Part shown: positions 1 to 18,293 of the stretch, piece by piece
How positions within the stretch are numbered: position 1 is the first letter of the stretch
Layout: each line of letters begins with the position of its first letter
Notes under the pieces: generated by a model
Databases searched by the model: none
The model's input: only the letters and a program-made list of their open reading frames with translations
What the model was told of the DNA's origin: nothing
Translations under genes and position numbers: made by a program
Virus record (IMG/VR): IMGVR_UViG_3300017666_000014
Coordinates: 1-21,078 of that record
Source: a virus
Reading direction: 5' to 3' (one strand)
Length of the DNA stretch: 21,078 bases

Positions 1-228
1 ATGGCAAAGACGATCAAGGTTCGCATTCCGGCCGTGGTTGCCCCAGACGGCCGCTGGTGCGCCTACGGCTACCCTGGCGCAACGAAGGAGCCGGATTGGT
101 CGATGTGCGAAGAGGTCGCCGACAACGGGGAGTATGAGGGCTCCTACCAGCATCTGTGGATCACGGCCGAGCTTCCGGTCCCGGAGGCTGAAATCGACGT
201 CGAAGCCATCGCCGCCGGTCCAGCATAA
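1..228 (+). CDS. Small hypothetical phage protein (75 aa)
   Basis: I do not recognise this protein. It begins MAKTIKVRIPAVV and is acidic in its C-terminal half (EAEIDVEAIAA). It has three aromatic-rich patches (RWCAYGYPG, EPDWSMCEE, GSYQHLWIT) and no membrane segment. The ATG coincides with the window edge, so any ribosome binding site, or a longer start, is out of view. The reading frame is intact, ends at TAA, and is followed 20 bases later by the next small gene with a good ribosome binding site. It is therefore taken as the first visible member of the left accessory operon. The fold (short beta strands, acidic tail) cannot be assigned from sequence alone. Confidence 0.7.
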   Translation: MAKTIKVRIPAVVAPDGRWCAYGYPGATKEPDWSMCEEVADNGEYEGSYQHLWITAELPVPEAEIDVEAIAAGPA

Positions 229-248
229 CCTTTCCGCAGGGGCAAGTT

Positions 249-377
249 ATGACGCAATACGGACCAGACCCGTTCAACTTTTTCGCCGGCATAGGCGTGC
301 TCGTTTTTTTGTCGTGCTGCGGCTACGCCCTGGTGCGATGGATCAAGCACAACTACCCGCACAACATGGCCGAGTGA
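249..377 (+). CDS. Small single-pass membrane protein (42 aa)
   Basis: This short frame starts at an ATG preceded by AGGGGC about five bases upstream and ends at TGA. The protein has a polar N-terminus (MTQYGPDPFN) and one strongly hydrophobic segment at about residues 10-29 (FFAGIGVLVFLSCCGYALV). A basic, histidine-containing tail follows (RWIKHNYPHNMAE). The charge distribution predicts the C-terminus in the cytoplasm. The family is unknown. Its position among closely spaced small genes and its ribosome binding site support a real gene; function is unassigned. Confidence 0.6.
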   Translation: MTQYGPDPFNFFAGIGVLVFLSCCGYALVRWIKHNYPHNMAE

Positions 378-405
378 CACTCGCGATGAGACAGGGAGAA
401 AGCCG

Positions 406-588
406 ATGAGCGAACAATACGACACCAAGCAAGAGGCGCTAATCACCAGAACGAAGGAAAAGGCCTTTATGAAAGGCGTCGAAGCGGCTAGGCGCGGGAA
501 ATCGATCAACAACAACCCATACGCCCATGTCGACAATCAAGCGGTTTGGCGGGACGGGTTTCTGTCCGTTAAGCCTGACGCGCGCTGA
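406..588 (+). CDS. RMF/CrpP-like small protein (60 aa)
   Basis: The ATG follows a strong AGGGAGA ribosome binding site. After a charged N-terminal part (residues 1-20) the protein reads FMKGVEAARRGKSINNNPYAHVDNQAVWRDGF (about 21-52, described by its key residues). The spacing G24, A27-A28, G31, N37-P38-Y39, W48, G51-F52 resembles the ribosome modulation factor/CrpP group, which has a G-x-x-A-x-x-x-G segment, an NPY or CPY turn and a W-x-x-G motif. RMF dimerises stationary-phase ribosomes in Escherichia coli; CrpP was reported as a plasmid protein of related sequence. The similarity is by eye. If correct, a role in ribosome or host-stress modulation is possible but is inference. Confidence 0.55.
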   Translation: MSEQYDTKQEALITRTKEKAFMKGVEAARRGKSINNNPYAHVDNQAVWRDGFLSVKPDAR

Positions 589-604
589 GGCAAGGGGAAA
601 GCTG

Positions 605-1288
605 ATGACGGCCCGCACCGAGCAATGGTTGCTCGACCACAAGGACTATCCCTACGACTACTGCCTGATTTGGCCGTTCGCGCGGGAAGGCCGCGTTGGG
701 CGCGGTATGATGGGCGGCAAAGGAAACCGGAAGTGGGCTCACCGGGCGATGTGCGAGCTTGTCCACGGACCAGCTCCAGCCGACAAGCCACAAGCGGCCC
801 ATAGTTGCGGCAACGGCGACCAGGGATGCGTCAATCCTCGGCATCTGTCATGGGCCAACAATTCCGAGAACCAGATTCAGCGGTACGCTCACGGGCGCGG
901 GCCATCAAATACGAACGGCAACAAGAGCCGGTTCACGCCGACGCAAATTGCGGAGATCCGCGCCAAGTATGGCGAGTTCACGCAAACGAAGCTGGCCGAG
1001 ATGTACGGCTGTTCCCTTGGCACGATCCAATATTATCTGAAATACCGCGACGAACGCGGCCATGCCGGTGGAAAGATCAACCATTGGTCTCCCGATGAAG
1101 ACGACCAGTTGCGAGATTGCGTGAAGCGCGGTCTCAGCTTCCCGGAGATCGCTCGCGAGATCGGCCGGCCCCTCGGGGCCGTCACCGGACACGCCTACCG
1201 GATCGGTCTTAAGTCCGGCAGGCCACCCACGCGAACGGACTACGCCTCAGTTTCACAGACGAATGGGGAGCGCGAGACCGGGGGGTAG
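605..1288 (+). CDS. HNH endonuclease with C-terminal helix-turn-helix segments (227 aa)
   Basis: A likely homing-type or free-standing HNH nuclease. The ATG follows AAGGGGAAA and lies 16 bases after the previous stop; an upstream extension would overlap that gene. The nuclease core lies at about residues 45-86: an AHRAMCELVHGP helix, AAHSCGN (H66, C68), CVNPRHL (C75, H80), then WANNSEN. This matches the HNH_3 pattern H-x-C-x(n)-C-V-N-P-x-H-L. Residues about 112-147 (TPTQIAEIRAKYG, then LAEMYGCSLGTIQYYL) look like a helix-turn-helix. Residues about 159-206 (WSPDEDDQLRDCVKRGLSFPEIAREIG, by position) look like a second, SANT/Myb or GcrA-like one. No intron or intein is visible around it, so it may be a stand-alone mobile endonuclease or a packaging-related nicking HNH. 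Confidence 0.85.
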   Translation: MTARTEQWLLDHKDYPYDYCLIWPFAREGRVGRGMMGGKGNRKWAHRAMCELVHGPAPADKPQAAHSCGNGDQGCVNPRHLSWANNSENQIQRYAHGRGPSNTNGNKSRFTPTQIAEIRAKYGEFTQTKLAEMYGCSLGTIQYYLKYRDERGHAGGKINHWSPDEDDQLRDCVKRGLSFPEIAREIGRPLGAVTGHAYRIGLKSGRPPTRTDYASVSQTNGERETGG

Positions 1289-1289
1289 A

Positions 1290-1550
1290 ATGGACAACGT
1301 GCTGCTGTTTCTCGGATATCTCGCTCTGGTCGCGCTGTGTGGCTATTACGGCCCCGAGATCGCGAGCCGACTATGGAAGCCGAAGCCCCATGTCCCATGC
1401 CAGGAATGGCGAGAGATGGTCGAGCCGATCGTGAAAAAGTGCAAGTTAGCCGCCACCTTCAATGGCAGCACCAGCTTTGATGCCGAAGGTTCTAGCTCTC
1501 TAGCCTCCTTACTTGAGCGGATGGCTACCGAACTGGATCGGAGATCCTGA
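1290..1550 (+). CDS. Membrane-anchored small protein (86 aa)
   Basis: The ATG lies one base after the HNH stop codon, and a run of six G residues in the end of that gene can act as the ribosome binding site, so the two are probably translationally coupled. Residues 3-22 (NVLLFLGYLALVALCGYYGP) form one N-terminal membrane segment. A basic stretch (RLWKPKPH) follows, then a soluble region with two cysteines (C40 and C51 approximately) and a predicted helix near the C-terminus (SLASLLERMATELDRRS). The protein is unrecognised. The layout of anchor plus short helical domain would suit a small inner-membrane accessory factor, but no function is assigned. Confidence 0.6.
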   Translation: MDNVLLFLGYLALVALCGYYGPEIASRLWKPKPHVPCQEWREMVEPIVKKCKLAATFNGSTSFDAEGSSSLASLLERMATELDRRS

Positions 1551-1568
1551 CCGAACAACGAGGATGAG

Positions 1569-1826
1569 ATGAAAACGAACGCCTTAGATTACTGGCATGA
1601 AGCGAAGCCAAGGTGCCCTCATTGCGGGGAGTGCTTCGAAATATGGGAAAATGACCACCCGCTCGCGCTAAACTACGAGGACGGCGGGCGCACAACATTT
1701 GAGTGCGAGTCATGCAACAAGCCATTCGTATGCGAGACAGTCGTGAGCTACGTATTCTCAACTGCCGTCTCGGAGGAAGCTGCCGACGATGACGACTGGG
1801 GCCCGGAGCAAGAGGCCGCCGCATAA
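1569..1826 (+). CDS. Zinc-ribbon protein (85 aa)
   Basis: Two CxxC knuckles are visible: C16-P-H-C19 and C46-E-S-C49, about 27 residues apart, the usual spacing of a zinc ribbon. A further pair (C22, C55) flanks them. The C-terminus is strongly acidic (EEAADDDDWGPEQEAAA), reminiscent of phage proteins that bind host factors or mimic DNA, though this is only a compositional remark. The ATG is preceded by GAGGATG with AACGAGGA upstream as a ribosome binding site. Zinc ribbons of this kind are common in small early phage proteins that bind nucleic acid or RNA polymerase; the partner is unknown. Confidence 0.75.
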   Translation: MKTNALDYWHEAKPRCPHCGECFEIWENDHPLALNYEDGGRTTFECESCNKPFVCETVVSYVFSTAVSEEAADDDDWGPEQEAAA

Positions 1827-1849
1827 CCACAGCTGAGCAGGGAACGACG

Positions 1850-2026
1850 ATGAGAGAAATCGAAATGATCAGGCGGATGGGTCTCGTGATAGAGGTGCCG
1901 GAATTTGATCCTAAGAAGCACGTCAGATTCCGGGGGAAGCCCATTGAGGCGTTGACCCGCGAAGAACTCGTGGATGCGCTAGAGCAAGCTCTACGCGAGA
2001 TCCACGCGGCTCGTAGCCGATCCTAA
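1850..2026 (+). CDS. Small hypothetical protein (58 aa)
   Basis: The frame runs from an ATG with CAGGGAACG upstream to TAA. The protein starts MREIEMIRRMGLVIEVPEFD, continues with a basic stretch (PKKHVRFRGKP), and ends with a well-formed amphipathic helix (ALTREELVDALEQALREIH). The family is unknown. Its length, ribosome binding site and spacing (23 bases after the zinc-ribbon gene, 13 before the next) match the rest of the operon, which is the main support for calling it. Confidence 0.6.
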   Translation: MREIEMIRRMGLVIEVPEFDPKKHVRFRGKPIEALTREELVDALEQALREIHAARSRS

Positions 2027-2039
2027 ACAGGGAGAGATC

Positions 2040-2165
2040 ATGCTGAGCCTTCGGAAGGGAATCCCCCTGGACTATAAACCCCGCAAGGGGAGGTATCGTC
2101 GCGTTCGGGATCATGCAGTGCATCCGTTGAAGCGGCCCGGCAAGCGCTGGCTACGGCGCACATAA
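2040..2165 (+). CDS. Very basic mini-protein (41 aa)
   Basis: The ATG follows a near-ideal CAGGGAGAGATC ribosome binding site, and the stop TAA lies one base before the structured repeat at 2167. The 41-residue product (begins MLSLRKGIPLDYKPRKGRYR, ends RPGKRWLRRT) has about fourteen Arg/Lys and only two Asp and no Glu, so it should bind nucleic acid or acidic surfaces. No family is recognised. Because its stop directly abuts the inverted repeat, the repeat would form in the 3' part of the same transcript. Small size makes the call less certain, but the ribosome binding site is as good as that of any neighbour. Confidence 0.5.
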   Translation: MLSLRKGIPLDYKPRKGRYRRVRDHAVHPLKRPGKRWLRRT

Positions 2166-2166
2166 G

Positions 2167-2274
2167 AGGATGAGCGCGGCATACACGAGGGCGGTCGAAA
2201 GACCGGGGACCATAAGAGCGGGTCTTGGCAGGGGCAATGCTCCAGAACCCTGCCCTCTTGTATGCCGCGATCCT
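2167..2274 (+). ncRNA. Structured RNA candidate: long stem closing three hairpins
   Basis: A non-coding segment between two small genes forms a long inverted repeat. Pairing 2167-2171 with 2270-2274 gives 5 bp, then a 3-base bulge (GAG, 2172-2174). 2175-2185 pairs with 2259-2269 (11 bp), then one C/U mismatch (2186/2258), and 2187-2192 pairs with 2252-2257 (6 bp). Inside are a GGUC-GAAA-GACC hairpin with a GNRA tetraloop (2193-2204), a possible GACC...GGUC hairpin with a 9-base loop (2208-2224), and GGGGC-AAU-GCUCC (2231-2243). Alternatives exist: 2199-2204 with 2221-2226, and 2227-2233 with 2248-2254. There is no U-tract after it, so it is not an intrinsic terminator, and it lacks tRNA consensus loops. 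I know no matching RNA family. The active strand is not proven; + is assumed from the flanking genes. Confidence 0.5.
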
Positions 2275-2294
2275 GGGCAAGGAGCGCGAGAGCC

Positions 2295-2477
2295 ATGAAG
2301 AAGTCGGAAGCGATACGCTGGATCAAACGGGAAATCGCTCGCGAGATACGAGAACGAATTTCGGAAGTTCCAGATCGAATTGGCGAGGCTCCTGATCCAG
2401 GTATGGTTGAAGGGTTATGGGAGGCTGAGGCTTGGAAGGCCGCCGACCGCATCTGGCCCGAAGGCAAAGACGTTTGA
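2295..2477 (+). CDS. Small helical hypothetical protein (60 aa)
   Basis: The start ATG was chosen because AAGGAG lies at 2279-2284, ten bases upstream. The in-frame ATG at 2262 lies within the stem of the structured repeat and has no ribosome binding site. The N-terminal half (KKSEAIRWIKREIAREIRER) is a highly charged amphipathic helix. The second half has a GLWEAEAWKAADRIWPEG segment that looks helical with conserved-looking tryptophans. The family is unknown. It is the last gene of the left module and converges on the tail-spike gene of the opposite strand. Confidence 0.6.
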   Translation: MKKSEAIRWIKREIAREIRERISEVPDRIGEAPDPGMVEGLWEAEAWKAADRIWPEGKDV

Positions 2478-2526
2478 ACACACTGGCAATGTCCCTGAGA
2501 CAGTCCAAGACACCCGTTAACCCTGT

Positions 2527-2549
2527 CAAGGGGCTCCCTTGAAGGGAGC
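2527..2549. terminator. Nested palindromes between convergent modules (possible bidirectional terminator)
   Basis: Between the last + strand gene and the end of the tail-spike gene, two overlapping hairpins are possible. One is CAAGGG-GCT-CCCTTG (2527-2541); the other is GCTCCC-TTGAA-GGGAGC inside 2533-2549, whose full arms are 8 bases around one central G. They share the CCCTT arm and so exclude each other. The position is right for stopping converging transcription, but neither strand has a clear U-tract, so the terminator call is weak. Confidence 0.35.
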
Positions 2550-2562
2550 GAACGCCGTAAGT

Positions 2563-3939
2563 TTATGTGAGCGTCAGAGCGCTAAACAGCGATTGCACTT
2601 CCGGCACCAAAAGGTTGTCGGCAGCTAAGGTCTGATGCGTCCCGTCAGATGTTGCGTAATTGGCAAGACCATTCACCAACCACTTCCGGGGGTCCACCCC
2701 GCGAACCGCCTGCGGCACAGCGCTGAAATCCAAAACTCCGGATTGGAGAGCTGAAGCCTTGAGATCGTACCACAATCCTGCGGGGTAGGCTGGCACGGCA
2801 ACCGTCTGGTTCGCCTCGGTCACCCACGCGTCCGTTGAACTCGACTTTGGGAAAAGACCGACATGGCCAATTTTGTCGTAACCGTACACCGTCCTCGCCG
2901 TATTCCAAATCTTGAAGTAGTGGAGCAAACGGTTTTGATCGTTCGTGCCCATCATGTCCGAGAACACGCGGCAATAGGCCATATACGGATACCAGTGGGT
3001 GAACGGCACGATGGTGTACTGCGACGAGCCGCCTGCAGAGAATTCGATGCTGGCCACCCCAAGATTCTCTAGGGCTTTTTTGACGTAGGTTCCACTCCAA
3101 CCAACGAAATTAGCGCTAGTCCCCTCCATCAAGCTGTCACCGAGAATGAACACTGTCTTCGGATCGCCGGTCACCGGGACACCCACGAGGATAGGACAGA
3201 AGCCAGCAATGGCCGTGCTGTTGGTGAAGCCGCTCCCCGAAATGGTCAGTGCCCCCGTGCCGGTGAAATTCGTAATGGTCGCCGTAGCTGGGTCATAGAA
3301 GGTAGCGCTGCTGCCGGTGATTGAGTTCAGGCGATTGGACAAAGGTATCTTTTGCCCCGCGGCGGCAACGTGTCCTCGCACTCTCACCCAAAGCTCGGTG
3401 GATGCCGGAAAGTTGGACAGCCCCGTGAAGATCGATGGCAAGATAGCGTCCGATTTCACGTCAATGGCGCCGTCAGCGAGTGTTATCCCCGCTGCACCAC
3501 CAAATAAGACCTGCTTGCTCTCGGCCACAGTAGTGACCCGCTCAAGGTAACATTCATCAATGACGACGGCATTGCCGATGTTCGGGCTGTTGAAGTTAAA
3601 ATTGCCGAATGACAGCTTTAGGGCTGACATGGCATCGGCCCCCATCTTCAGCCTGAAGCGGGAGACGAAGCTTAGTTGCGTCCCGGAGAGAGTGCTTGTC
3701 GCGAAGCATGGGATGCGGTTGTCCACGCTGGCAGCTCGAAGAGCGCCCGGGGTTGCCGTGCTGGCCTTTGCGGCCGGCGCCGTGGCCGCCTGCATCTCCG
3801 CCACCGACATGCGGCGGGCATAGAACTTTATGGACTTAATGTGCCCTATATTGCCGGCCGCGCTGGTGCCGAGGAGGCGGATATCAGCACCGAATGATGG
3901 CGTAGCGCCTGACGTGGCCGCCCCCCCCATTCGACACAA
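2563..3939 (-). CDS. Tail spike, C-terminal part: SGNH-family esterase (separated by a frame change)
   Basis: This frame holds the distal part of a receptor-binding spike. It begins with the end of a lectin-like domain (HIKSIKFYARRMSVAEMQ, a common closing motif of fibre domains). A beta-rich region follows, then an SGNH/GDSL hydrolase: FILGDSLMEG with the nucleophile serine (GDS codons at 3141-3133), a glycine block (SAGGSS), MMGTNDQ (G-x-N-D, codons 2949-2938) and SDGTHQT (D-x-x-H, codons 2646-2635). All four catalytic blocks are present. Spikes of this class de-O-acetylate or otherwise modify host surface polysaccharide; the substrate here is unknown. The frame could start independently at TTG 3939 or ATG 3930, but neither has a convincing ribosome binding site. 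The natural product is more likely a fusion with the upstream frame (807 aa if one base of the G run is dropped). Confidence 0.8.
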   Translation of the reverse strand: MCRMGGAATSGATPSFGADIRLLGTSAAGNIGHIKSIKFYARRMSVAEMQAATAPAAKASTATPGALRAASVDNRIPCFATSTLSGTQLSFVSRFRLKMGADAMSALKLSFGNFNFNSPNIGNAVVIDECYLERVTTVAESKQVLFGGAAGITLADGAIDVKSDAILPSIFTGLSNFPASTELWVRVRGHVAAAGQKIPLSNRLNSITGSSATFYDPATATITNFTGTGALTISGSGFTNSTAIAGFCPILVGVPVTGDPKTVFILGDSLMEGTSANFVGWSGTYVKKALENLGVASIEFSAGGSSQYTIVPFTHWYPYMAYCRVFSDMMGTNDQNRLLHYFKIWNTARTVYGYDKIGHVGLFPKSSSTDAWVTEANQTVAVPAYPAGLWYDLKASALQSGVLDFSAVPQAVRGVDPRKWLVNGLANYATSDGTHQTLAADNLLVPEVQSLFSALTLT

Positions 3940-4987
3940 GATCGCTGCCCGACCCGTCCCAAGCCAAGGCAGTCTTGCCCGCTGCTGGCGCGTTCATGAT
4001 TGCCGTAGCGGCTGAACCAATGAGAACGCCTTCGGCGCAATCGTGCTCGACGATAAACGTTCCTTTTGCGCTGGTAAACCAAGACAGGTCGTTAAACAAA
4101 GCGATTTCAGCGGGCTGGGTTAGAGCAGCGGACGTCGTGGTGACCCAGCCTGTCGGCGCTGCGCCAGTGATGCACTGAAGGCCATAGCACTGGAAACCCT
4201 CAGTGGTGGCGCCGACGAAGGCGGCGTAGACAGCGCCGCTCGGTGAACCATCTTGGTTACAAGTCGCGACCTTGGCAACCTTGTTTGCCGTGTTGACCCA
4301 AGTGACAGTCATCGACAGCAGGAACATCCCGTTGGCCAGCTTGCGCAAGCCTTGCACAACGTTCGTGGCCTTCGTCGTGTCCGCCACGACATAGCTACCC
4401 GGCGTCCCATCAATCATAAAAATGCCGATGGGGCCAGCGTTGTCGTTTTGATCGGAGACCCTGAAAGACAGCGCCCAGCGGGTGGCGGTGCCCAGCGGCT
4501 TGACAATAGTGTAGAACGTCTGACGCGTGCCGGCCGCGATTGAGGTTGGCGTTGCAAAATAAGTCGGCCCGTGAATTGCGCTGGCCGTTGTCTCAGCAAG
4601 AGCCGTGAGCGAGCCTGCAACACCATCAGGCCCGGCGTCACCCGTTGCCCGGGTGACGCTCGACGTGCCCCATTGCACGGCGTTCGAAAAGTCGTTGCTG
4701 TATGTGAGTAACTGCGTGATGTTACCGCCGGACGGCGCAGCATCGACTGCCATCCCCCTCGCCACACCATCCCAGCTTTCAAAGGCAGGCTGACCCGACG
4801 CGACACTGACAAGAGCCCCGTTGACAATCGCGTTTCGCGCGCCAGTGCGCGTAAACGTGATGCTCGGCGGCAACGACGTTGTGAGGTCTAGGTTCAAGGC
4901 AGGGCCGCTCAAACCGCCACCTTTCGCTCCCCCAAGGGGAGTGCCGAGGCTCATTCTGCCGTATTTTCGGCCCATTCCTCCAACCAT
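3884..4987 (-). CDS. Tail spike, N-terminal part (367 aa as read)
   Basis: The virion-proximal part of the spike. It starts MVGGMGRKYGRMSLG at an ATG preceded by AAGGA, 12 bases after the DUF6378-like gene. A glycine-rich start is followed by a beta-rich fibre domain (LTYSNDFSNAVQWGTSSVTRA, by position about 90-115) of the kind seen in phage head-spike/fibre proteins. A second jelly-roll-like domain contains FSTSAKGTFIVEHD-type sequence near residue 310. The domain is cut in mid-fold: after SDLVSNGGGG the frame runs 12 residues (HVRRYAIIRC and the last Gly pair) to a stop, whereas the other frame continues the fold naturally. This part should anchor to the tail machine, while the esterase acts on the cell surface. 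Confidence 0.8.
   Translation of the reverse strand: MVGGMGRKYGRMSLGTPLGGAKGGGLSGPALNLDLTTSLPPSITFTRTGARNAIVNGALVSVASGQPAFESWDGVARGMAVDAAPSGGNITQLLTYSNDFSNAVQWGTSSVTRATGDAGPDGVAGSLTALAETTASAIHGPTYFATPTSIAAGTRQTFYTIVKPLGTATRWALSFRVSDQNDNAGPIGIFMIDGTPGSYVVADTTKATNVVQGLRKLANGMFLLSMTVTWVNTANKVAKVATCNQDGSPSGAVYAAFVGATTEGFQCYGLQCITGAAPTGWVTTTSAALTQPAEIALFNDLSWFTSAKGTFIVEHDCAEGVLIGSAATAIMNAPAAGKTALAWDGSGSDLVSNGGGGHVRRYAIIRC
3921..3928 (-). repeat. G8 homopolymer at the spike frame junction
   Basis: Eight C residues on the + strand (eight G in the coding sense) lie exactly where the spike passes from one frame to the other. As read, AAT is followed by G8 then CGGCC. With seven G residues the upstream frame continues as SNGGAATSGATPSFGAD, joining the two halves of one domain. 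A gain of two bases would also restore it; a single added G would not. Confidence 0.85.
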
Positions 4988-4999
4988 GCTATCGGTTCC

Positions 5000-5281
5000 T
5001 TATCGGCGGAATTCTTTGGTCGACACTTCGCCGGCACAAGCTAGGTAGCCAGCGCCGTCAATCCAGTCGTCTACGTTGATGCTCCCGCTCTTGGTGCGGG
5101 CGATTTTGAGGAGTGCCATCATGTGCGGGACGTCCGCAATTGTGAGCGGCTGGTCAAGCTTCAGGTAAGCAGTCCATAGCGCCGCGACGTGAGCAAAGTG
5201 CTGGTGCATGTCGCCGTGGGATTCTGCCCTGTCACCGCCGACGAGTTCAGCGGCCTTTGTGGCGATCTCTGTTGCGTTCAA
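5000..5281 (-). CDS. DUF6378-like phage protein (93 aa)
   Basis: The pattern GDRAESHGDMHQHFAHVAALW (residues about 16-36), DVPHMMALLKIARTKSG (about 50-66) and DDWIDGAGYLACAGE (about 71-85) is characteristic of the small DUF6378-type proteins found in many phages. They are helical and of unknown biochemical role; resemblance to MazG-like helices is sometimes noted but not established here. The TTG start at 5281 was chosen because it overlaps the preceding stop by four bases (TTGA) and fits the usual N-terminus of the family. An upstream in-frame TTG at 5326 would overlap the acetyltransferase gene further. It is coupled with the acetyltransferase and followed after 12 bases by the tail spike. 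Confidence 0.75.
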   Translation of the reverse strand: MNATEIATKAAELVGGDRAESHGDMHQHFAHVAALWTAYLKLDQPLTIADVPHMMALLKIARTKSGSINVDDWIDGAGYLACAGEVSTKEFRR

Positions 5282-5709
5282 AGACGTTTCATCCAATAGA
5301 GGCTGTGCGGGAAAGCCCAATTCCAATCAGGCTGAAACAACCGATAGCCCGCCCTGATAAAGTTGTTCGCCGACGCGACGTTGTCCGTCGTATCGCTTAC
5401 GATTTGCGTCCAGCTATTGTACTTTGATTTGCGCTCCAGCGCACGCATGAAGCGCAGTTGGAGCTTATGCCCAAGGTGTTTTTGAACAACTCCGACGCGG
5501 ATAAAGTAGCCAGCATTCGGGATGATCGTGGACTTGATGACGCCAGCGAATCCGACCGGCTCTTTGCCGAGATGAGCAAGCCACCAATGACCTTCATCAA
5601 AACTCGGCAGCTTGGCGTGGTCTAGGAACGTCTGCTCGTGAAGGTCTTTCAGGGTCTCTGAGATTAGCTCGTCAGAGGTATCGACTTCACGAATGACGTA
5701 GCTAGACAC
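5278..5709 (-). CDS. GNAT-family N-acetyltransferase (143 aa)
   Basis: A GCN5-related acetyltransferase fold is visible: an N-terminal helix (SDELISETLKDLHEQTF), strands HWWLAHLGKEPVGFAGVIK (about 41-59) and YFIRVGVVQKHLGHKLQLRFMRA (about 68-90) with the acetyl-CoA loop at Q76-G80. It ends DNVASANNFIRAGYRLF (about 109-125), the usual final helix with the Asn and Gly-Tyr/Phe motif. The GTG at 5709 was chosen because GAGGGG lies nine bases upstream and the gene overlaps the previous stop by eight bases. The substrate is unknown; related phage enzymes may modify host or phage proteins. Its position between the phosphoesterase and the tail spike suggests late expression. Confidence 0.8.
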   Translation of the reverse strand: MSSYVIREVDTSDELISETLKDLHEQTFLDHAKLPSFDEGHWWLAHLGKEPVGFAGVIKSTIIPNAGYFIRVGVVQKHLGHKLQLRFMRALERKSKYNSWTQIVSDTTDNVASANNFIRAGYRLFQPDWNWAFPHSLYWMKRL

Positions 5710-6667
5710 GATGCAGCGCCCCTCTAAACCACACGGTCCTGGCATCCATCTTTGTGACCAATTCCGGCGGCATCAGGATTCCATCCTTGTAAGTCAGGAC
5801 GGCAAACCCCGACCTCCAGTCCAGCGCGGAATCCTCTGTATAGCCGAACGCACGATGTTCTTTGTCAGCCACGCAGCCAGTATCAACGCCATAACGGTCA
5901 TGGCGATTGTAATCAGAAAGAGGTCGAACATTCTGCGCATGAAGGTGCCCCGTAACCATGGAGACGCCGGCATTGAGTGCGTTTGCTCTGGTCGCATTCA
6001 TGCCACCCTTCCAACGGTGCTTGACCATCGTGGCGCCGCCCGAGACGCCCTCGTTGATGAAGCAGGACATTGCTTTCTGCCAAGCTCCAAAGTGGTCTGA
6101 CAGGTGCACGCCTTTGATACCGCGATACTGCGGCGCCATACTCGCAATCATTAATTCAAATCGGGCGTCGTGATTACCTAACGTCCAGACCTTGTGTGTC
6201 CCACGCTTGCATGCTTGCACGATATCGTTCAAATGATCCTGCGCGGCCTCGATTTCCTCTTGTGGATCTGGCGCGGTTTCCCAATTCTGGGGGTGCCGGC
6301 TGATCCTTGGGAAGTCCATCACGTCACCATTCAGGATGACGGCTGCGGGCTTAATGTCAGCAACGAATTTCTTGAACGCACGAAGGCAGGTTGAAGGTTC
6401 ACCGGGCCAGATATGGAAGTCCGACCCGACGATCACGACGCCATTCTTGATGTCGAGATTGTATCGGCCTGGTGCCGTGGGGCGCTGGTGGGTTGGAGCA
6501 ACAAGGAAATGCCCTGCCCGCTCCAGTCGCTCGCGGCGGCCGTAGACGTTGCGCTCGGTTATGCCGAGCATGATGGAGGTTCGTTTAGCGCCTAGCGTGG
6601 TAAAGAGTTGCATGAACTCCTGATCGGAGCAGCGAGGGGCGGAATGTCCGCTCTTTGTCGCCGGCAA
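5702..6667 (-). CDS. Calcineurin-like metallophosphoesterase with N-terminal HTH (321 aa)
   Basis: A binuclear-metal phosphoesterase. The motifs are in order: SDFH (82-85), NGDVMDF (113-119), GNHD (164-167), a histidine at about 217 (KHRWKGG) and GHLHA (240-244), all with the metal-ligand residues intact. Residues about 15-50 (SDQEFMQLFTTLGAKRTSIM, then GITERNVYGRRERLE) form a helix-turn-helix-like domain, an arrangement seen in related phage proteins. The TTG start at 6667 has GGGGA seven bases upstream and lies three bases after the previous stop; a later ATG (residue 19) would cut into the HTH domain. The substrate could be a nucleotide, nucleic-acid end or phosphoprotein; it is not determined here. 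The downstream acetyltransferase overlaps its end. Confidence 0.88.
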   Translation of the reverse strand: MPATKSGHSAPRCSDQEFMQLFTTLGAKRTSIMLGITERNVYGRRERLERAGHFLVAPTHQRPTAPGRYNLDIKNGVVIVGSDFHIWPGEPSTCLRAFKKFVADIKPAAVILNGDVMDFPRISRHPQNWETAPDPQEEIEAAQDHLNDIVQACKRGTHKVWTLGNHDARFELMIASMAPQYRGIKGVHLSDHFGAWQKAMSCFINEGVSGGATMVKHRWKGGMNATRANALNAGVSMVTGHLHAQNVRPLSDYNRHDRYGVDTGCVADKEHRAFGYTEDSALDWRSGFAVLTYKDGILMPPELVTKMDARTVWFRGALHRV

Positions 6668-6670
6668 TCG

Positions 6671-6883
6671 CTATTCCCCTCTCTTGGGATGCAGCTTGAC
6701 CCATATCTGCACCGCAAGCCACAGAATGCCGAACACCTGAAGCGTCACGGCTAGAATGTCGTGCCATTCCTGTAAGTTCGGCATCCATGCCCAGCTTGTT
6801 GCGGCGGCCACGGCGACAGCGTCCGTAACCCCTTCGGTTTTCGTTTTGGGCAGAACAGCCACAAGGAACTTGAAAAGGCTCAT
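6671..6883 (-). CDS. Small membrane protein, holin candidate (70 aa)
   Basis: The ATG overlaps the stop of the upstream three-helix holin candidate (ATGA). The N-terminus MSLFKFLVAVLP is short and hydrophobic. The middle is alanine-rich (VTDAVAVAAATSWAWMPNL) and the C-terminal helix is clearly membrane-spanning (ILAVTLQVFGILWLAVQIWVKL, about 43-64), followed by HPKRGE. Two membrane segments are possible, as in class II holins. Family identity is not certain, but size, topology, basic tail and position among lysis genes support a holin, antiholin or related role. Confidence 0.6.
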   Translation of the reverse strand: MSLFKFLVAVLPKTKTEGVTDAVAVAAATSWAWMPNLQEWHDILAVTLQVFGILWLAVQIWVKLHPKRGE

Positions 6884-10408: not shown

Positions 10409-11796
10409 CCCTCCCAGACGCCCCTAAGCAGCATTTGAGACGAACCGCCCAAGTAATTGACCGCCGGAGAACCGCTAGTCGCAACGGTCACTTCAAGGGA
10501 CGTGAAGACATTTATCCCGATGGTTGGGGGGTCTGCCAACCACGATACGTTATCCATTATTTGGAGAACATCGATGCTCGTGCCGTCCACTCGAATGCTG
10601 CCTTGGCCCCTTCGGCCCGAAAAAGTAGTCGTTGAGTTTTTGCCGATCCCGACTTGCCAGGTTGCAATTACTTGGCTGGTAGCGGTTACGGTTCCGGCTT
10701 GAACAGACTGATTGAATGAAATCTCAAACGGTTCTTCTGGTAGACCAGAAAACACCGTCAATGAATTTGCCGAAGAACCGTTTGAGGCACGGATTGTGTT
10801 GGTAAGGTAATTCCAAAGCGAGGTGGAATCGCCCGCCTGCAAGATGATCTTGCGGCGATTGTAGGCGTTCCAAACACCCCATTTTCGGGACTGGCCATAC
10901 GTCGTATGGCAGGACACCTGCCCGTTCGTGCCGTCCATGTAAATGGAGCCGACGTAGGTTCCCTGATAGGCCGGGATTGTTCCGGTGGTTGCGCCGTTAC
11001 GATAGGAAATGTCGTACTTGTTGACCCACAACCCGTTAATGCGGGTTAGCTCTGTCGTTCCGGCGCCAGTGCCGCGAGCGCCCGCCGCAGCGGTCGCCGT
11101 ATTCCACGCAACGCCCGTTCCGATCTGAAGTGCGGACCCGTCCCAGAAAATGAAGTTGTCATAGATCGCGCTAGCGACATGATTGGAGTTAAGGGTAAGG
11201 GTCAGATCGGACGTGAACTTGCGTGCGTTGAATTGCGTTCCGTCATAGACGGGGACGAGGTTGCCGACGAACGCTGTGTAGTAAACCGCCGTACCAGCCG
11301 AGACGCCGGTTGCCAGGACCGGCGTTCCGGTCGTCAGGGTCAACCGCCCCTGCGGGAATGAAACGATGTTCTGGACCGATGAACTCAGCGTCGTAATATC
11401 GGCCGCCAGGTCAGCCAGCTCCGATGTGCTGGGCACGCCAAGATTGGCGCGGGCCGCCGCCGCCGTGGTCGCGCCCGTACCTCCTGAAGAGACCGGCAAA
11501 GATCCGACACTGGCGGAAAGCCCGGTGTCAATGTTATCGTATTCGGGGGGAATGAGGACGCCTGCGGAAGTCTCGATCCGGACCTTGTAAACTCCGTCAG
11601 CCGTGTAGATTTGGGAGAACCGCCCCGCCGCGTCGGACGTCTGGGGGTTTGCCGCTGGAACGGTCAGCGCGGAGTCGGTATATACGTTGCGCAGGGTCGT
11701 GGTCCCGGCCTCGTACACGTAGAGCTTCGCACCAACATAAATATCGCCGTTGTTGTCGTTCGGCTGATTGATGGGCGCTTTGACTGTGGCTGCCAT
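10405..11796 (-). CDS. Tail fibre protein (463 aa)
   Basis: The N-terminal 110 residues (APINQPNDNNGDIYVGAKLY, then EAGTTTLRNVYTDSALTVPAANPQ and DGVYKVRIETSAGVL) match the virion-attachment domain found at the start of many podophage fibres and spikes. LPVSSGGTGATTAAAARANLGVPS follows, the widespread fibre motif. The rest is a beta-rich shaft and head (for instance INGLWVNKYDISYRNGATTG) with no recognisable enzymatic motif. The ATG is preceded by TTGAGGA, just after an intrinsic terminator, so the fibre genes may be transcribed partly separately from the head genes. It is coupled to the small tail protein by a four-base overlap. Confidence 0.85.
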   Translation of the reverse strand: MAATVKAPINQPNDNNGDIYVGAKLYVYEAGTTTLRNVYTDSALTVPAANPQTSDAAGRFSQIYTADGVYKVRIETSAGVLIPPEYDNIDTGLSASVGSLPVSSGGTGATTAAAARANLGVPSTSELADLAADITTLSSSVQNIVSFPQGRLTLTTGTPVLATGVSAGTAVYYTAFVGNLVPVYDGTQFNARKFTSDLTLTLNSNHVASAIYDNFIFWDGSALQIGTGVAWNTATAAAGARGTGAGTTELTRINGLWVNKYDISYRNGATTGTIPAYQGTYVGSIYMDGTNGQVSCHTTYGQSRKWGVWNAYNRRKIILQAGDSTSLWNYLTNTIRASNGSSANSLTVFSGLPEEPFEISFNQSVQAGTVTATSQVIATWQVGIGKNSTTTFSGRRGQGSIRVDGTSIDVLQIMDNVSWLADPPTIGINVFTSLEVTVATSGSPAVNYLGGSSQMLLRGVWEG

Positions 11797-11807
11797 TCAA
11801 ATCCTCA

Positions 11808-11832
11808 AAGAAAAAGCGCCCCAGTGGGCGCT
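11808..11832 (-). terminator. Intrinsic terminator before the fibre genes
   Basis: In the coding sense, AGCGCCC (11832-11826), a 4-base loop, GGGCGCT (11821-11815) and then a run of T (from 11815 downward). It lies in the 85-base gap between the last ejection gene and the first fibre gene and is followed by the fibre ribosome binding site. Confidence 0.8.
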
Positions 11833-11881
11833 ACTTTCGTGGCTCGTGGTATGTTGGCTTTTGATCGCCTACCCGTATGGG

Positions 11882-14359
11882 CTATTTCTGTTCGTCTTCA
11901 GCGCGGCTTGTTACGGGGCCTTGAAGAACACCCAAGAAGTCACCGATCCGGGCACTAGACCCGAGGCTTTGAGTGGTGTTGACTAGATTGCGCGAGGCGG
12001 CGCGATACCCAACAAGGGCCGCGGCGTTTCGCTTCTCAATAAGGGAAGCGTAAGCCCTTACCCATTTTGCGGCACTCGATGCTCCGGGAGGAGAGGCGAG
12101 AACCTTAGCCACCATGCTGCCTCCAAGGACGCTGGAAAGCGTAGTCAGCGGGGCCGCCAACACACCTCCGGCCAGAGCTACCAAGTTAACGTTTTGGGCC
12201 GTTCCTGATGGGTTGCCGAACTTTTGGCCGACCTGCTTCAAGCGGTTTGAGATGATAGCAATATCGTCAATGGCTTGGCGCTGAGGGCCGGCGTTGCCGA
12301 ACAGAATTGCTTTGGCTTGCGGCGTATAGCCTTGCCACTGAGAAACGAACACGTCCGGCGAGAACTGTCCGGTTCTGGGAGAAATACCAAGATTGCGGAT
12401 TATGGAGCCGGCTAAGTCGTTTCTGTCTTGGGCCGGAAGCGCGCGCACAAGCTTAGCCAATGTCTGGATATCGGCTTTACCTCCGGACTTCGCGTATCCG
12501 TCGATTGTTCGGAACAGCGCCTCGTCACTCTTGCCCCCCTTGCCGACGACCGTATCTGCGAGCTGCTGCATCGGGCCGGGGTTGACTTCCATCGTCCCCG
12601 GCTTGGTAACCTTGGCCACATCGCCAATGAGTTCGCGCGCTCCCTGACCAGCTCTCAATGTCTGGGCATAGGATTGCATCATACGGCGCTGTTCTGGGGT
12701 GAACAGCCGCTCCGCGATGTCGCGGCCTGACCCATTCAAGAACTCTGCGATATCGTTTGCGACCTTAGCTGGCGCCTTTGCTTCGGCACCTTCTGTAGCC
12801 TGCGTGAGCCTATTCCAAATGCCGCCCCGGATAGCCTGCATGGCCTCTGCGTCACCTCCGGTAGCTTCAGCAATGCGCGTGAGCAGTCGGGACGAAGCAC
12901 CCTTGGCTCCGACCTTGCCGGCCCCAACCAGGAAGTTGGAGACCTCTTGAGGGGTAATCTCCCCGGTCACAATCCTTTCGACAAATCGTCCAGCCTCATT
13001 CTCATCATTGAAAAAGCGGTTACGCCAATTGGCGTTTGCCGTCCGAGCCCGACGGAATGCATTGAGTGCTTCATCATTGCCGGAAATGAGCGCGTTTTCA
13101 AATGCATTTGACTGCCACTCATCGAACTGCCGCATCACATTGGTTGCAGCCCGCCGATCGGCGTCATTGGTTGCCGCGCTGCGGAAGAAACTTAGCCTCT
13201 TGCGCGCTTGCTCAATGCCTTGGACGCTGACCCCAACTCTTGCTTCATTACCCGCCGCAGGAAGGCGCGCGCCAACCGCGCGGTTCGGGATATTCAACTC
13301 AGACAGGCGCTGGAGTTCGTCCATCATCCTGCTTGCGGCGGGTGTCAATTGCGGATCGACGATAATACCAGAATCTTCGAGGCCCTGAGAAACAATAGAT
13401 CTGACGTTCTGGACTTCGTTGGCACGAACAGCCGCGTCCATGCCGCCAGCACGAGCATAGAGCGCATCCTTTTCCGCCCGTGCGGCAGCCTCACCAGTCC
13501 TTAGCCGCTGGATAAGGGCCGCGCCCATATCTTGGGGAGACATATCCCCGACCGCCTGCCGCGTGGCCTCAAGCGCGTTCGTTTCGCGGGTGGCAACGGC
13601 CTGATTGCCGGCGTCTATATCGCGATGATAGGCAGCCGCAACAGCCTCATCGGAGCGCCGGGCTGCATCCGTAGCGGCCCTTGTCTCGGCCTCAGCGGAG
13701 GCTTCCAGACCGCGGCCGATACGATTTGCAACATTAGGCCCGGCGCCAGTTCCGAATTGATCCGCAACGTTGCGAGTCGCGTTGCCCAGATCTTCGACAA
13801 GTCGTCCAGTGGCCTGCGGAATCTTATCGCCAACGATTGGCACATTCCGCAGCCCCTGCCCCAAACGCTGAACCGTAGTATTATCGCTTGCCACCGCAAG
13901 CGGCACATTTACCTGAGACCCATTCTGCTTTAACCGTTCCGCAGCAGCCAAAACCTCAGGATTTGCCCTTACTGCCTCAGCCTCGGTTCGCACGACGGGG
14001 GCCGCGACAGGCGCGGCCTTGGATGCGACCGACACCGGAGACGCCACGCCAGCGAGGTCAAACGACCGCTTGATTACTTCCTGGTCGGCAGCATCTTGAT
14101 TGCTGATATCACCCTCGGTGATCCAGCCAGGTTTTTCCGGCTTAACGGCGAATTTCCCTTGCGCAACATCGCCGGGCAATGTCACGGCTTCGTAAAGCGA
14201 CTTTGCCAGACGGGCCGGCCAAGTATCTTTCAGGCCAAATTTCTCCTTGGTGGGCTCTTCTGCGGTCTCCTGCGGGCGATACGCATTCCACGGACCATCA
14301 GAGGCCGGGGCTGACGTGAGCGCCGCGCCGCTTTGATACGCCTCCCAGGGACCGGCCAT
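11882..14359 (-). CDS. Large DNA-ejection (internal virion) protein (825 aa)
   Basis: The product opens MAGPWEAYQSGAALTSAPAS followed by DGPWNAYRP: two copies of the G-P-W-x-x-Y motif that marks the N-terminus of many podophage internal virion proteins. The body is alanine-rich, charged and mostly helical (for example AETRAATDAARRSDEAVAAA), with long stretches likely to be coiled coil. Near the C-terminus there is a hydrophobic segment (VNLVALAGGVLAAPLTTLSS, about 730-750, and VLGGSMVAKVL) that could insert into the host membrane. Such proteins leave the capsid ahead of the DNA and form a channel across the envelope. The start ATG 14359 overlaps the upstream stop (TGATG); a longer frame from 14377 is less likely. 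No lytic transglycosylase motif was recognised. Confidence 0.82.
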   Translation of the reverse strand: MAGPWEAYQSGAALTSAPASDGPWNAYRPQETAEEPTKEKFGLKDTWPARLAKSLYEAVTLPGDVAQGKFAVKPEKPGWITEGDISNQDAADQEVIKRSFDLAGVASPVSVASKAAPVAAPVVRTEAEAVRANPEVLAAAERLKQNGSQVNVPLAVASDNTTVQRLGQGLRNVPIVGDKIPQATGRLVEDLGNATRNVADQFGTGAGPNVANRIGRGLEASAEAETRAATDAARRSDEAVAAAYHRDIDAGNQAVATRETNALEATRQAVGDMSPQDMGAALIQRLRTGEAAARAEKDALYARAGGMDAAVRANEVQNVRSIVSQGLEDSGIIVDPQLTPAASRMMDELQRLSELNIPNRAVGARLPAAGNEARVGVSVQGIEQARKRLSFFRSAATNDADRRAATNVMRQFDEWQSNAFENALISGNDEALNAFRRARTANANWRNRFFNDENEAGRFVERIVTGEITPQEVSNFLVGAGKVGAKGASSRLLTRIAEATGGDAEAMQAIRGGIWNRLTQATEGAEAKAPAKVANDIAEFLNGSGRDIAERLFTPEQRRMMQSYAQTLRAGQGARELIGDVAKVTKPGTMEVNPGPMQQLADTVVGKGGKSDEALFRTIDGYAKSGGKADIQTLAKLVRALPAQDRNDLAGSIIRNLGISPRTGQFSPDVFVSQWQGYTPQAKAILFGNAGPQRQAIDDIAIISNRLKQVGQKFGNPSGTAQNVNLVALAGGVLAAPLTTLSSVLGGSMVAKVLASPPGASSAAKWVRAYASLIEKRNAAALVGYRAASRNLVNTTQSLGSSARIGDFLGVLQGPVTSRAEDEQK

Positions 14360-15330
14360 CAGGGCAACTTCACCCAATTCTTTTCGTCTCCGGGATCGCC
14401 GCCCTTGTAGCGGTAGCCCCTCTCAACAGAGCCAGGCTTAGGCAACGGCACAACCCTGCCGTCCTGAGTGTAGATAGATTTGGGCCGATAAGCCGGGCCG
14501 CCCTCTCGCCCCATCGCCTCCACTGCGGCGCGGCGATTGGCGGCCTTCTGCCGTTTGACCTCTTCGCTATCGCCCGGCACGGGGAAATACTGTTTGTCGG
14601 CGTTCTCGAACTCAGAGGCCGAGATGGCCGCTCCGGATTCGCGGCGAAGCTGGGCATTGATAAAGTCGCGCTTGGCCTGCTCATACTTCTGCCGGTCAAC
14701 ACTAACAAGATAGTTGCCGGCGACCGGGATTTTGCTTAGGCCGCCCTGAACAATGCTAGAGCCTTGGCTCTGCACATTCGGCTGTCCAAGGATGCCCTCC
14801 GATTGGAGCATACGATCAGTGAAGCCGGCGGCCTTGCCCTGCTCGTTATTGAACTTGCCGCCCGTCTCGTTAAACGGATTTGTCGGAGCCGTCGCCGTTG
14901 GCTGAGGACCAGTCGGCACGACGTCGCCTGTCCGCATGTTGTACTTCACGAAGCTGGTTGCGCCGGTCGCGGGGTCGGTGATTTCCTTTACGCCGAATTT
15001 GTCTTCGTCCGCACGTTCAGCGGCGCGCTTTGAGAGCGCGAGCTGCTGAAGCTGAACGCTCTGGCTAAATTTGTCATTTGACGCGAGCCGAGCGTCCTGC
15101 TGGGCCTGCCGCGCAAGTTCGTCCTGATGATTTTTGATATTGATACCAAGCTGGGCGAGCGACAGGTCGCCCGACTTCAGCAATGATTGCGCATCAGCCG
15201 CCCCGCCCTGCCCCAGATTGGCAAGCGTGCGCTCCCGCAAATTGTCCTTGCGCGCGGTCTGGTAGACGTTCCCAAGGTTGCCGAGCGGCGAAAAATCGAT
15301 GTTCGGAACGACGGGATCAATCAAGGGCAT
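14359..15330 (-). CDS. DNA-ejection protein, second of three (323 aa)
   Basis: The conserved block YEQAKRDFINAQLRRESGAA, then ISASEFENADKQYFPVPGDS and a lysine/arginine helix (EEVKRQKAANRRAAVEAM, about 255-272) is a hallmark I associate with podophage DNA-transfer proteins. The N-terminal third is helical and Gln/Ala-rich (SLLKSGDLSLAQLGINIKNH, then DELARQAQQDARLA). The middle is a low-complexity Thr/Pro/Asn region (about 140-160). The C-terminal end is basic and Gly-rich (RYKGGDPGDEKNWVKLP). It lies between the gp7-like protein and the large ejection protein, 10 bases after the former. It corresponds in position to P22 gp20, though direct homology cannot be shown here. Confidence 0.78.
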   Translation of the reverse strand: MPLIDPVVPNIDFSPLGNLGNVYQTARKDNLRERTLANLGQGGAADAQSLLKSGDLSLAQLGINIKNHQDELARQAQQDARLASNDKFSQSVQLQQLALSKRAAERADEDKFGVKEITDPATGATSFVKYNMRTGDVVPTGPQPTATAPTNPFNETGGKFNNEQGKAAGFTDRMLQSEGILGQPNVQSQGSSIVQGGLSKIPVAGNYLVSVDRQKYEQAKRDFINAQLRRESGAAISASEFENADKQYFPVPGDSEEVKRQKAANRRAAVEAMGREGGPAYRPKSIYTQDGRVVPLPKPGSVERGYRYKGGDPGDEKNWVKLP

Positions 15331-15340
15331 GCGTTAGACC

Positions 15341-16066
15341 TCAACCAAACGAGGGCCACGACCGGCCGCCGTAGTTCATGACGCCGGCAGTGCCGCCGCC
15401 TCCACCGATGCCACCGAACAGGCTGGACAGGCCACCACTACCGCCAAGCGCGGATGCGCCAAGGTTCGCAATGCCCATGCCGAGCCCCACGATGTTCTTT
15501 GCACCAGCGCCCTGCGCATTGGCCGCCGCAATATCACCATTGCCGATGGTCGATGCAGAATTCATGTCGCCCTGATACGCGGTCTGGCGCGTTCCTAGCT
15601 GCCCCTGAAGGCCCGTGCCAATCGTGGCATTCTGGCTGGTCAAGGCGTTCTGACCCTGCCCGGAGAGACCGCCAAGCGTTCCAAGGTACGAATTGAACTT
15701 GCTGTCGAAATAGTTCTCGCCGTACTTCTGGAGATCCTTGCCCGTCTTGCCGGAGAAAAGGGAGCCCTGCCCGATTGCCGAATTGGAAATCGCGTCGTTG
15801 CCCTGCTGAAGACCGGACTGATAGTAGGGCGTAGACGTGAAGCTTGACGGGTCCGACAGAAGGCTTTGGATGCCCTGGTTGGCTTGCAGGCCCGTGTTGA
15901 CGAAGGGCTGGTAGCCCTGCCCGAGCGTCGCGAACTTGCTGGCGTAGTCGTTGCCGTAGTTGGTCAGGCCCGTCGATGCGGCCTGCTGTTTCTGATACGT
16001 ATCGGCCGCGGCCTGCTTGGCTGCGTTCGCTGCCGTTTTGCCCGTAAGGTCGTCCCAGAGGCCCAT
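15341..16066 (-). CDS. P22 gp7-like DNA-transfer protein (241 aa)
   Basis: The N-terminus MGLWDDLTGKTAANAAKQAA is a short helix. A Gln/Gly/Ser-rich core contains SFTSTPYYQSGLQQGNDAIS and GSLFSGKTGKDLQKYGENYF (about 75-120), followed by DSKFNSYLGTLGGLSGQGQN. This is typical of the gp7-like DNA-transfer family. The C-terminus (IVGLGMGIANLGASALGG and GGLSSLFGGIGGGGG) is a glycine-rich hydrophobic tail, suitable for membrane insertion. The length is close to P22 gp7 (about 230). With the two following genes it makes the usual set of three ejection proteins. The ATG lies seven bases after the preceding stop. Confidence 0.82.
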   Translation of the reverse strand: MGLWDDLTGKTAANAAKQAAADTYQKQQAASTGLTNYGNDYASKFATLGQGYQPFVNTGLQANQGIQSLLSDPSSFTSTPYYQSGLQQGNDAISNSAIGQGSLFSGKTGKDLQKYGENYFDSKFNSYLGTLGGLSGQGQNALTSQNATIGTGLQGQLGTRQTAYQGDMNSASTIGNGDIAAANAQGAGAKNIVGLGMGIANLGASALGGSGGLSSLFGGIGGGGGTAGVMNYGGRSWPSFG

Positions 16067-16072
16067 GATGCC

Positions 16073-16246
16073 CTACTTGTTCAAATCTTGAATGAGCTGG
16101 TTGTAAGCCGCGATGAGATCGGCCAGGGTCGCACCACCCGGAAGCGCCGTGGTATTGCTCGGCTTGCGGCTTTCGATGTTCTGAATGTACGCCTGCATGG
16201 ACTTGGAAAGTCCGTGGTCAGACGGAAGCTTTGAATTGGTCGCCAT
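16073..16246 (-). CDS. Small protein between gp10-like and gp7-like genes (57 aa)
   Basis: A short frame linked to the gp10-like gene by TAATG. The product begins MATNSKLPSDHGLSKSMQAY and ends in a helix (LADLIAAYNQLIQDLNK) preceded by a Pro/Gly turn. In P22 the next gene after gp10 in this region is the tail needle (gp26), but this protein is far too short for a needle. It may be a minor tail or ejection-assembly factor, or an oligomerising peptide. No family recognised. Coding is supported by the start/stop overlap and by filling an otherwise empty 173-base gap. Confidence 0.6.
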   Translation of the reverse strand: MATNSKLPSDHGLSKSMQAYIQNIESRKPSNTTALPGGATLADLIAAYNQLIQDLNK

Positions 16247-17667
16247 TACTTCCTGATCGGCCTAATAGCTGCGTCCATCTCGACAATCGCTCGAATGACG
16301 GGGTCGGACACACGCAAGCGAAACATGATGCCCTTGTCACCAAATCGACCAAGGCGCCGCGTCACGACGCGAACGCGGTCGCCTCGTTTGCCGATCTTCA
16401 ACTGACGGTCGCCCGTGAAGCTGTTGCCGCCGTCGATTGACCAGCTCAGCATCAGAACCGGGTCATACCCCTGGTCAGTCGCCAGCGTCTTACCTACGCC
16501 CGTAGCAACGTCGATATAGAGCGCGTCAACAATGCCGCCGTTCGGGAACACATGAATGATGGGCGTATCCATGCCCCACAGCATGGTAGAGCCGCCCTCG
16601 TCATACGTGTCGGCATCGAGGTAGTAGAGATTGCCTGTTAACGCATCGCCGACAATGGTCTTGCCCCAAGCGCGAATAGCGTCACGAGCACGCCAATAGT
16701 CAAGTCCAGCGCTCTGGCGTTCGTGCCAGACACCCGTTGCGGCGTCATGCGTTACTGCGAAATTGCTGCCGTTCCAATGGGACATGGCGTGTCCTTGGAA
16801 CACATACGGGAAGCCCGTCACACTCTCGCGCTCGGGATCACCTTCCAACAGGCGCTCAATGCCGTGGTCGGAAATCCGTGTCGGCGCGTACCCATTCATG
16901 CGATAGAATACATTGTCCTCGCCAGGATACATCAGCGTATTGTCGTTTGCGATCACCGCATGCGGCGCCACAAGCCCTTTCCGGCTGACCGACCCGGAAA
17001 TCAACTGGAACGGCAAGTCAATGTCGCCGATGAAGCGCCACGGCTCAACCGAGGTTCGGCTGAAAATGAAAATGTCCGAGCCGTCCGCCTTGATGCGGGT
17101 CAACTTGTCAGGATATTGCTCAGCCGTCGCGAAGTTAAGGCTATCAATGTTCTGGCAGGCATTGATTCCCGACCAGAAGAACCGCCCATCCGAAATGCCA
17201 TAAAGCGTATAGCCGGCGCTATAGTCCTGCGTCACGGCAGTCGGCAAATCGACGTCAGTGACCTTCTTAACAACGTCCGCCTCGATATAGTACTCTCCCG
17301 TCCCGCAATGGATGCTCACCTGCGCAGGATCGGCCTGGTTGCGGCTCATCTGCACCTTATCGGTTCCGGGAACGGTTCCGATGCGAGTCGCGGTCAGGGC
17401 AAACGGGGAGGTCGTCGAGAGAACAACCTTGTAAACACCAGACGAATGCACCGAATAAGCGCAATCAAGGTCATCGAGATACAACAGCCCCCGATTTGGG
17501 GTGTCCGTCACCGAACAGCATGACACCATGCCGGGACACGGCAACACCACCATAGGGGCCTTGCCGTCGTTCCCCTGCTGTTCAGCGTAAGCATTCAACA
17601 GCCTCGAATTTCCGGTAAACGAGTATCGGGGCGAGCCCGACCGGAAGGCTATCGGGACGTTGACCAT
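16246..17667 (-). CDS. P22 gp10-like packaged-DNA stabilisation protein (473 aa)
   Basis: The protein starts VPIAFRSGSPRYSFTGNSRL and LLNAYAEQQ, then continues as repeated beta blades (YLDDLDCAYSVHSSGVYKVV; GISDGRFFWSGINACQNIDS; TRIKADGSDIFIFSRTSVEP; EDNVFYRMNGYAPTRISDHG). This is the pattern of the gp10 family of tail accessory factors, and the length agrees with P22 gp10 (about 470). In P22, gp10 binds below gp4 and closes the portal vertex after packaging. Position directly after a gp4-like gene with a TGATG overlap supports the assignment. The C-terminal part (DQGYDPVLMLSWSIDGGNSF, then RRLGRFGDKGIMFRLRVSDP) is also typical. Confidence 0.9.
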   Translation of the reverse strand: MVNVPIAFRSGSPRYSFTGNSRLLNAYAEQQGNDGKAPMVVLPCPGMVSCCSVTDTPNRGLLYLDDLDCAYSVHSSGVYKVVLSTTSPFALTATRIGTVPGTDKVQMSRNQADPAQVSIHCGTGEYYIEADVVKKVTDVDLPTAVTQDYSAGYTLYGISDGRFFWSGINACQNIDSLNFATAEQYPDKLTRIKADGSDIFIFSRTSVEPWRFIGDIDLPFQLISGSVSRKGLVAPHAVIANDNTLMYPGEDNVFYRMNGYAPTRISDHGIERLLEGDPERESVTGFPYVFQGHAMSHWNGSNFAVTHDAATGVWHERQSAGLDYWRARDAIRAWGKTIVGDALTGNLYYLDADTYDEGGSTMLWGMDTPIIHVFPNGGIVDALYIDVATGVGKTLATDQGYDPVLMLSWSIDGGNSFTGDRQLKIGKRGDRVRVVTRRLGRFGDKGIMFRLRVSDPVIRAIVEMDAAIRPIRK

Positions 17668-18242: not shown

Positions 18243-18256
18243 GAATTCCCCTTGTT

Positions 18257-18283: not shown

Positions 18284-18293
18284 CATGTTGTCG

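Follow-up and report, generated by a model that had tools for sequence, protein, structure and literature searches.

Annotation of small structured phage RNAs is rare, and a function is known for few of them. Described examples include tRNA-like stable RNAs, such as RNAs C and D of T4; the phi29 pRNA, a small junction RNA whose complementary loops are able to pair between molecules; and the RNase III processing sites of T7, irregular long stems between the small genes of a polycistronic transcript. The structured non-coding RNAs ROOL and GOLLD, found in phages and prophages, are held together by kissing loops, are several hundred nucleotides (nt) long and multi-domain, are represented in Rfam and often reside near tRNA islands (PMC12286853). 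Here, we describe an intergenic element at positions 2167-2274 (+ strand) of the IMG/VR virus record IMGVR_UViG_3300017666_000014; the stretch of 21,078 nt that was analysed (positions 1-21,078 of the record) is referred to as the window.

Like ROOL and GOLLD, the element is structured, non-coding and phage-encoded; unlike them, it is about 95 nt long, consists of a single four-way junction and lies among small genes in a window that has no tRNA. The cloverleaf, comprised of a closing stem and three hairpins with a possible loop-loop contact, resembles tRNAs and T4 RNAs C and D. The head genes of the window are of the P22/Pam1 type and not phi29-like, which separates the element from the phi29 pRNA, and the absence of an Rfam match distinguishes it from both this RNA and ROOL and GOLLD. 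The T7 sites would not be expected to have the invariant loops and the covarying junction seen here. The description that fits the element best is that of a new family of small RNAs within a general class already known, the structured non-coding RNAs of phages; judging from sequence comparison, it probably is a genuine RNA of the phage and belongs to a family not yet described.

Among 50,697 phage records searched, the sole relative was found in Bradyrhizobium phage BDU-MI-1 (KY940711.1, 102565-102670; E 1e-13), with 77% identity to the element across 106 nt. BDU-MI-1 has a genome of 121 kb, and its host is the laboratory strain B. diazoefficiens USDA110. Both phages carry one copy of the element per genome, and the BDU-MI-1 copy resides in an unannotated gap flanked by small same-strand genes unrelated to those of the window. 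Apart from the element, the two phages showed no similarity in either DNA or protein, as no other DNA match is better than E 1.1, and protein-level matches below E 0.002 fall only on the element. BDU-MI-1 encodes a tail sheath, tRNAs, and its own replication genes, whereas the window has P22/Pam1-type head genes, and hence these are different kinds of phage. Since a 95-nt fold is the only thing common to two otherwise unrelated phages, the RNA itself seems to be under selection and to move on its own. The conserved core (2175-2269, + strand) aligns end to end with 102570-102665 of BDU-MI-1, and two covariance models (CMs), R1 and R2, score both copies at 110-111 bits. The first-pass annotation, made from the window sequence alone, had taken the stretch to be non-coding, and indeed no reading frame is preserved between the two copies, given one 1-nt indel.

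Comparison of the two copies yields a common four-way junction. The closing helix P1 pairs 2175-2189 with 2255-2269 (+ strand; 15 base pairs (bp), one mismatch at 2186.2258), and its pair probabilities are near 1 in the genomic context. A linker, GG or GGG, precedes P2, from which P3, P4, and again P1 follow without any unpaired base between them. P2 (2192-2205, +; 5 bp) is the hairpin CGGUC-GAAA-GACCG, with the stem invariant in both phages and the loop being GAAA or GAAG. P3 (2206-2226, +; 6 bp, 9-nt loop) is GGGACC-AUAAGAGCG-GGUCUU in the window and GCGGCC-AUAAGAGCG-GGCCGU in BDU-MI-1, so that the loop is invariant while two pairs are altered on both sides with pairing retained. P4 (2227-2254, +; 7 bp, 14-nt loop) is GGCAGGG-GCAAUGCUCCAGAA-CCCUGCC and GGUGGGG-GCAGUGCUCCAGAA-CCCCGCC, respectively, with one pair altered on both sides and one C-G pair replaced by U.G; the loop consensus is GCARUGCUCCAGAA. 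In P1, six pairs are altered on both sides, four of them canonical in both copies and two having a mismatch in one copy, as each copy carries one mismatch, at different sites. Thus, the cloverleaf-like arrangement originally proposed is borne out, amended to a compact four-way junction.

The substitutions between the copies are almost confined to paired columns (20 of 22). Both partners have changed in nine pairs, of which seven are canonical in each of the two copies (Fisher P 2.5e-6 for coupled change); the single-sided changes turn G-C into G.U and C-G into U.G. Such stem-keeping compensatory changes, the general mark of a conserved structured RNA, are observed here in two sequences. The six doubly changed pairs of P1 provide an independent test, as this helix had been proposed when the homolog was not yet known. 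Loops are more conserved than stems, with 2 of 29 unpaired and 20 of 66 paired columns substituted (Fisher P 0.016); the two large loops show a single difference in 23 bases. When the window copy was mutated randomly with the same substitution spectrum, 15 of 2000 trials folded as well as the BDU-MI-1 copy. The + strand is favoured, because several conserved G.U pairs are lost on the - strand and the CM scores there are far lower (27 and 20 bits, compared to 110). Taken together, this makes a conserved RNA structure well supported, and we hold it with high confidence. The interpretation given in the first-pass annotation is supported as well: a lack of compensatory changes in the stem, a match to a known Rfam class, and a lack of conservation beyond the source genome were all considered as evidence to the contrary, and none of the three was encountered.

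The outer complementarity had been described as 5 bp, a 3-base bulge, 11 bp, a mismatch and 6 bp, which we confirmed base for base: the outermost helix AGGAU/AUCCU (2167-2171 with 2270-2274), the bulge GAG (2172-2174), 11 bp (2175-2185 with 2259-2269), the C2186.U2258 mismatch, and 6 bp (2187-2192 with 2252-2257). The reported GGUC-GAAA-GACC tetraloop hairpin is present at 2193-2204. The 5-bp helix outside the bulge is absent from the BDU-MI-1 copy, which has another short extension. The whole element forms a strong inverted repeat (I1 in our analysis), and the minimum free energy (MFE) of its RNA is -57.1 kcal/mol, compared to -38.1 +/- 3.5 kcal/mol in dinucleotide shuffles (z -5.4; 0 of 200 shuffles as low), the lowest among 3,498 stretches of 108 nt on both strands of the window. 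Fold energy by itself is weak evidence, as the window DNA is GC-rich and coding stretches nearly match the element (-56.2 and -55.9 kcal/mol, several within 1-2 kcal/mol). These coding stretches are what one could cite in favour of the stem being a fluke of GC-rich DNA or a coding artefact; still, the covarying homolog in an unrelated phage and the lack of a retained frame refute this explanation, unless the two-copy comparison misleads, and we find it hardly credible.

In the inner region, the comparative P3 and P4 hairpins replace the nested alternatives of the single-sequence fold, and with P1 removed the MFE structure of both copies is the P2-P3-P4 core. The motifs GAGCG in loop 3 (2216-2220, +) and UGCUC in loop 4 (2238-2242, +) are possible partners, as their five-base complementarity amounts to -6.3 kcal/mol (shuffle P 0.03-0.04); since these bases are invariant, covariation neither supports nor refutes the contact. 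The complementarity suggests that loops 3 and 4 may touch, either within one molecule or, equally, between two. Pseudoknot-free folding of the window copy builds the GAGCG/UGCUC helix at the cost of P3 and P4, which accounts for the mutually exclusive alternatives noted earlier. Hence, the two further hairpins described inside the stem stand, but the alternatives may be a single fold, in which a loop-loop contact would retain all the helices.

No match to any of the 4,227 families of Rfam 15 was found in the whole window at the gathering threshold, and a relaxed search (E up to 10) revealed no relevant class, the best sub-threshold scores being 14.1 bits vs 77 and 11.8 vs 37.8; this agrees with the initial statement that no described RNA family is known to have this arrangement. 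The element is not a tRNA, again as stated initially: ARAGORN predicted 0 tRNA genes in the window, the closing stem has 15 bp rather than the 7 bp of an acceptor stem, the loops are 4, 9, and 14 nt, compared to 7 nt for an anticodon loop, and there is no T-loop sequence and no CCA. Neither a terminator-like site at the element nor a U-tract near it was found, the latter as noted from the start, which excludes an intrinsic terminator. The GTTRRRY core of attC-type sites was not seen on reading the element ends. An IS110 bridge RNA was rejected, as neither the window, which covers only part of the genome of its phage, nor BDU-MI-1 as a whole contains the PF01548 recombinase. Finally, a riboswitch or gene-specific leader is recognized by the same or a related downstream gene across genomes, and here the downstream proteins are unrelated.

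Sporadic occurrence in unrelated phages and a strong inverted repeat could also indicate a DNA-level element, that is, a mobile inverted repeat or a replication or packaging site acting as single-stranded or cruciform DNA. However, the G.U pairs exist on the + strand only, the conserved loops are asymmetric, each genome has a single copy, neither record contains an IS110 recombinase, and no target-site duplication is visible at the ends, making this explanation very improbable.

The element is situated inside a run of small same-strand genes. The stop codon of the upstream open reading frame (ORF; 41 amino acids, 2040-2165, +) is 1 base ahead of it; directly 3' of it is GGGCAAGGAG, and a Shine-Dalgarno sequence AAGGAG (2279-2284) precedes the downstream ORF (60 amino acids, 2295-2477, +), whose product has no relatives in IMG/VR and no Pfam match. 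The distance to the next start codon is 20 nt in the window and about 55 nt in BDU-MI-1. A junction-type fold so close ahead of a start codon in each of the phages is compatible with a riboswitch-like or protein-binding leader governing the translation of the downstream small gene, but these genes encode unrelated proteins, the predicted Shine-Dalgarno pairing in the window copy is unaltered by the element, and no expression platform is visible, so that we regard a leader as distinctly improbable.

The same location, between small same-strand genes with at most about 60 nt to the next start codon in both phages, would also suit a cis element of a polycistronic mRNA, namely, an RNase III processing or stability site similar to those of T7 early genes, setting the abundance of the flanking messages; RNase III could plausibly cleave the long P1. 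On the other hand, a processing site needs a stem and not invariant loops, while here the loops are conserved better than the stems, and the two large ones are nearly identical in phages that otherwise share nothing. The invariance of the loops thus disfavours a mere processing stem, and the unrelated neighbour genes favour a self-contained function in trans over a gene-specific cis regulator. These arguments against a leader and a processing stem are of moderate strength, and a cis role in processing or stability, although on balance unlikely, is a serious rival. Of the functions initially listed (non-coding RNA, cis regulator of the next gene, processing site, replication element), the gene-specific regulator is disfavoured, and the others are inseparable by sequence alone.

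We consider the chances about even that the element represents a small, structured RNA of the phage that is cleaved out of the transcript of an early operon and works in trans, a mode of action that we infer. An RNA of about 95-110 nt would be made from the + strand within the transcript of the small-gene, probably early, operon, to be either cut out or left behind as a stable RNA; the long P1 would be suited to RNase III. Loops 3 and 4 would be in contact, intra- or intermolecularly, and the invariant loops AUAAGAGCG and GCARUGCUCCAGAA could form a surface binding a protein or RNA of the host (or one common to phages); as the target we would guess a protein of the host that binds RNA, or a defence directed by RNA. 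The element would travel as an independent cassette among unrelated phages of soil alphaproteobacteria. The fuller version, a horizontally moving four-way-junction RNA locked by the loop contact and capturing a shared host protein or blocking a host defence in trans, is offered tentatively. Several points weigh against reading the element as a trans-acting RNA. Only two copies are known and all covariation comes from one comparison, to which R-scape-type statistics are not applicable; P3 and P4 were picked with both sequences in hand; and in a pseudoknot-free model of the window copy alone, their probabilities are 0.28 and 0.13, respectively. Further, a sigma-70-like promoter or a terminator belonging to the element was not found nearby on the + strand, as would also be the case for a cis element, and we infer both the trans role and the counter-host role. 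If the RNA acts in trans, it could open a way to study how phages of rhizobia use RNA for takeover or counter-defence.

The element is rare in what was searchable. A third copy was not found by pattern scans of IMG/VR, in 80 related contigs, among phages and plasmids, including additional searches with a 65-nt consensus probe derived from both copies, or by one exact-pattern scan of 84,980 prokaryote genomes, the latter being the only search that covered Bradyrhizobium chromosomes. Matches to exact conserved-block patterns in IMG/VR and these genomes proved not to be homologs upon folding or CM inspection, two of the IMG/VR patterns matched nothing, and a loose DNA pattern across IMG/VR yielded background only. 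The CMs R1 and R2, run across the full contigs of up to 80 phages that have the major capsid protein in common with the window, had no match, although this absence says little, as these contigs share the head genes of the window and not its left-hand genes. Two Agrobacterium plasmids match P3 and its loop exactly over 22 bases in an intergenic region (2501-2522 of the retrieved stretches); P3 alone is present, and this is probably chance.

Plasmid matches in Rhizobium gallicum and A. vitis drew attention to a different conserved stretch, which lies immediately upstream of DUF736 genes and was not accepted as a homolog based on CM R2. The sequence GGTCGAAAGACCGGGGAC is common to the element and one Agrobacterium vitis copy of this stretch, but we take it to be a coincidence, as the segment belongs to the variable part of the plasmid family and the CM score is at most 17 bits. 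The stretch itself, of about 110 nt and unannotated, is found in 553 plasmid records, mostly from Rhizobiales (397 conjugative), at 60-90% identity; an example is A. vitis CP146241.1, 2475-2583 of the retrieved stretch. It has a conserved hairpin, GGCCGCG-CCCAU-CGCGGCC, and no Rfam match, and is itself a candidate for a conserved RNA or leader.

Elsewhere in the window, the capsid gene has 387 related loci in IMG/VR, and in the best 80 of those contigs the left-hand genes are almost without relatives; comparison of positions 1-6700 and 11000-21078 indicates a sharply mosaic phage. The gene at 605-1288 (+) encodes an HNH endonuclease whose C-terminal part is a helix-turn-helix, GcrA-like or of another type (below the Pfam cut-offs), which hints at an alphaproteobacterial host. 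In addition, PF04957, the ribosome modulation factor family, is matched by a 60-amino-acid protein encoded at 406-588 (+) (E 1.8e-6, above the cut-off), and hence the phage may encode a ribosome hibernation factor of its own.
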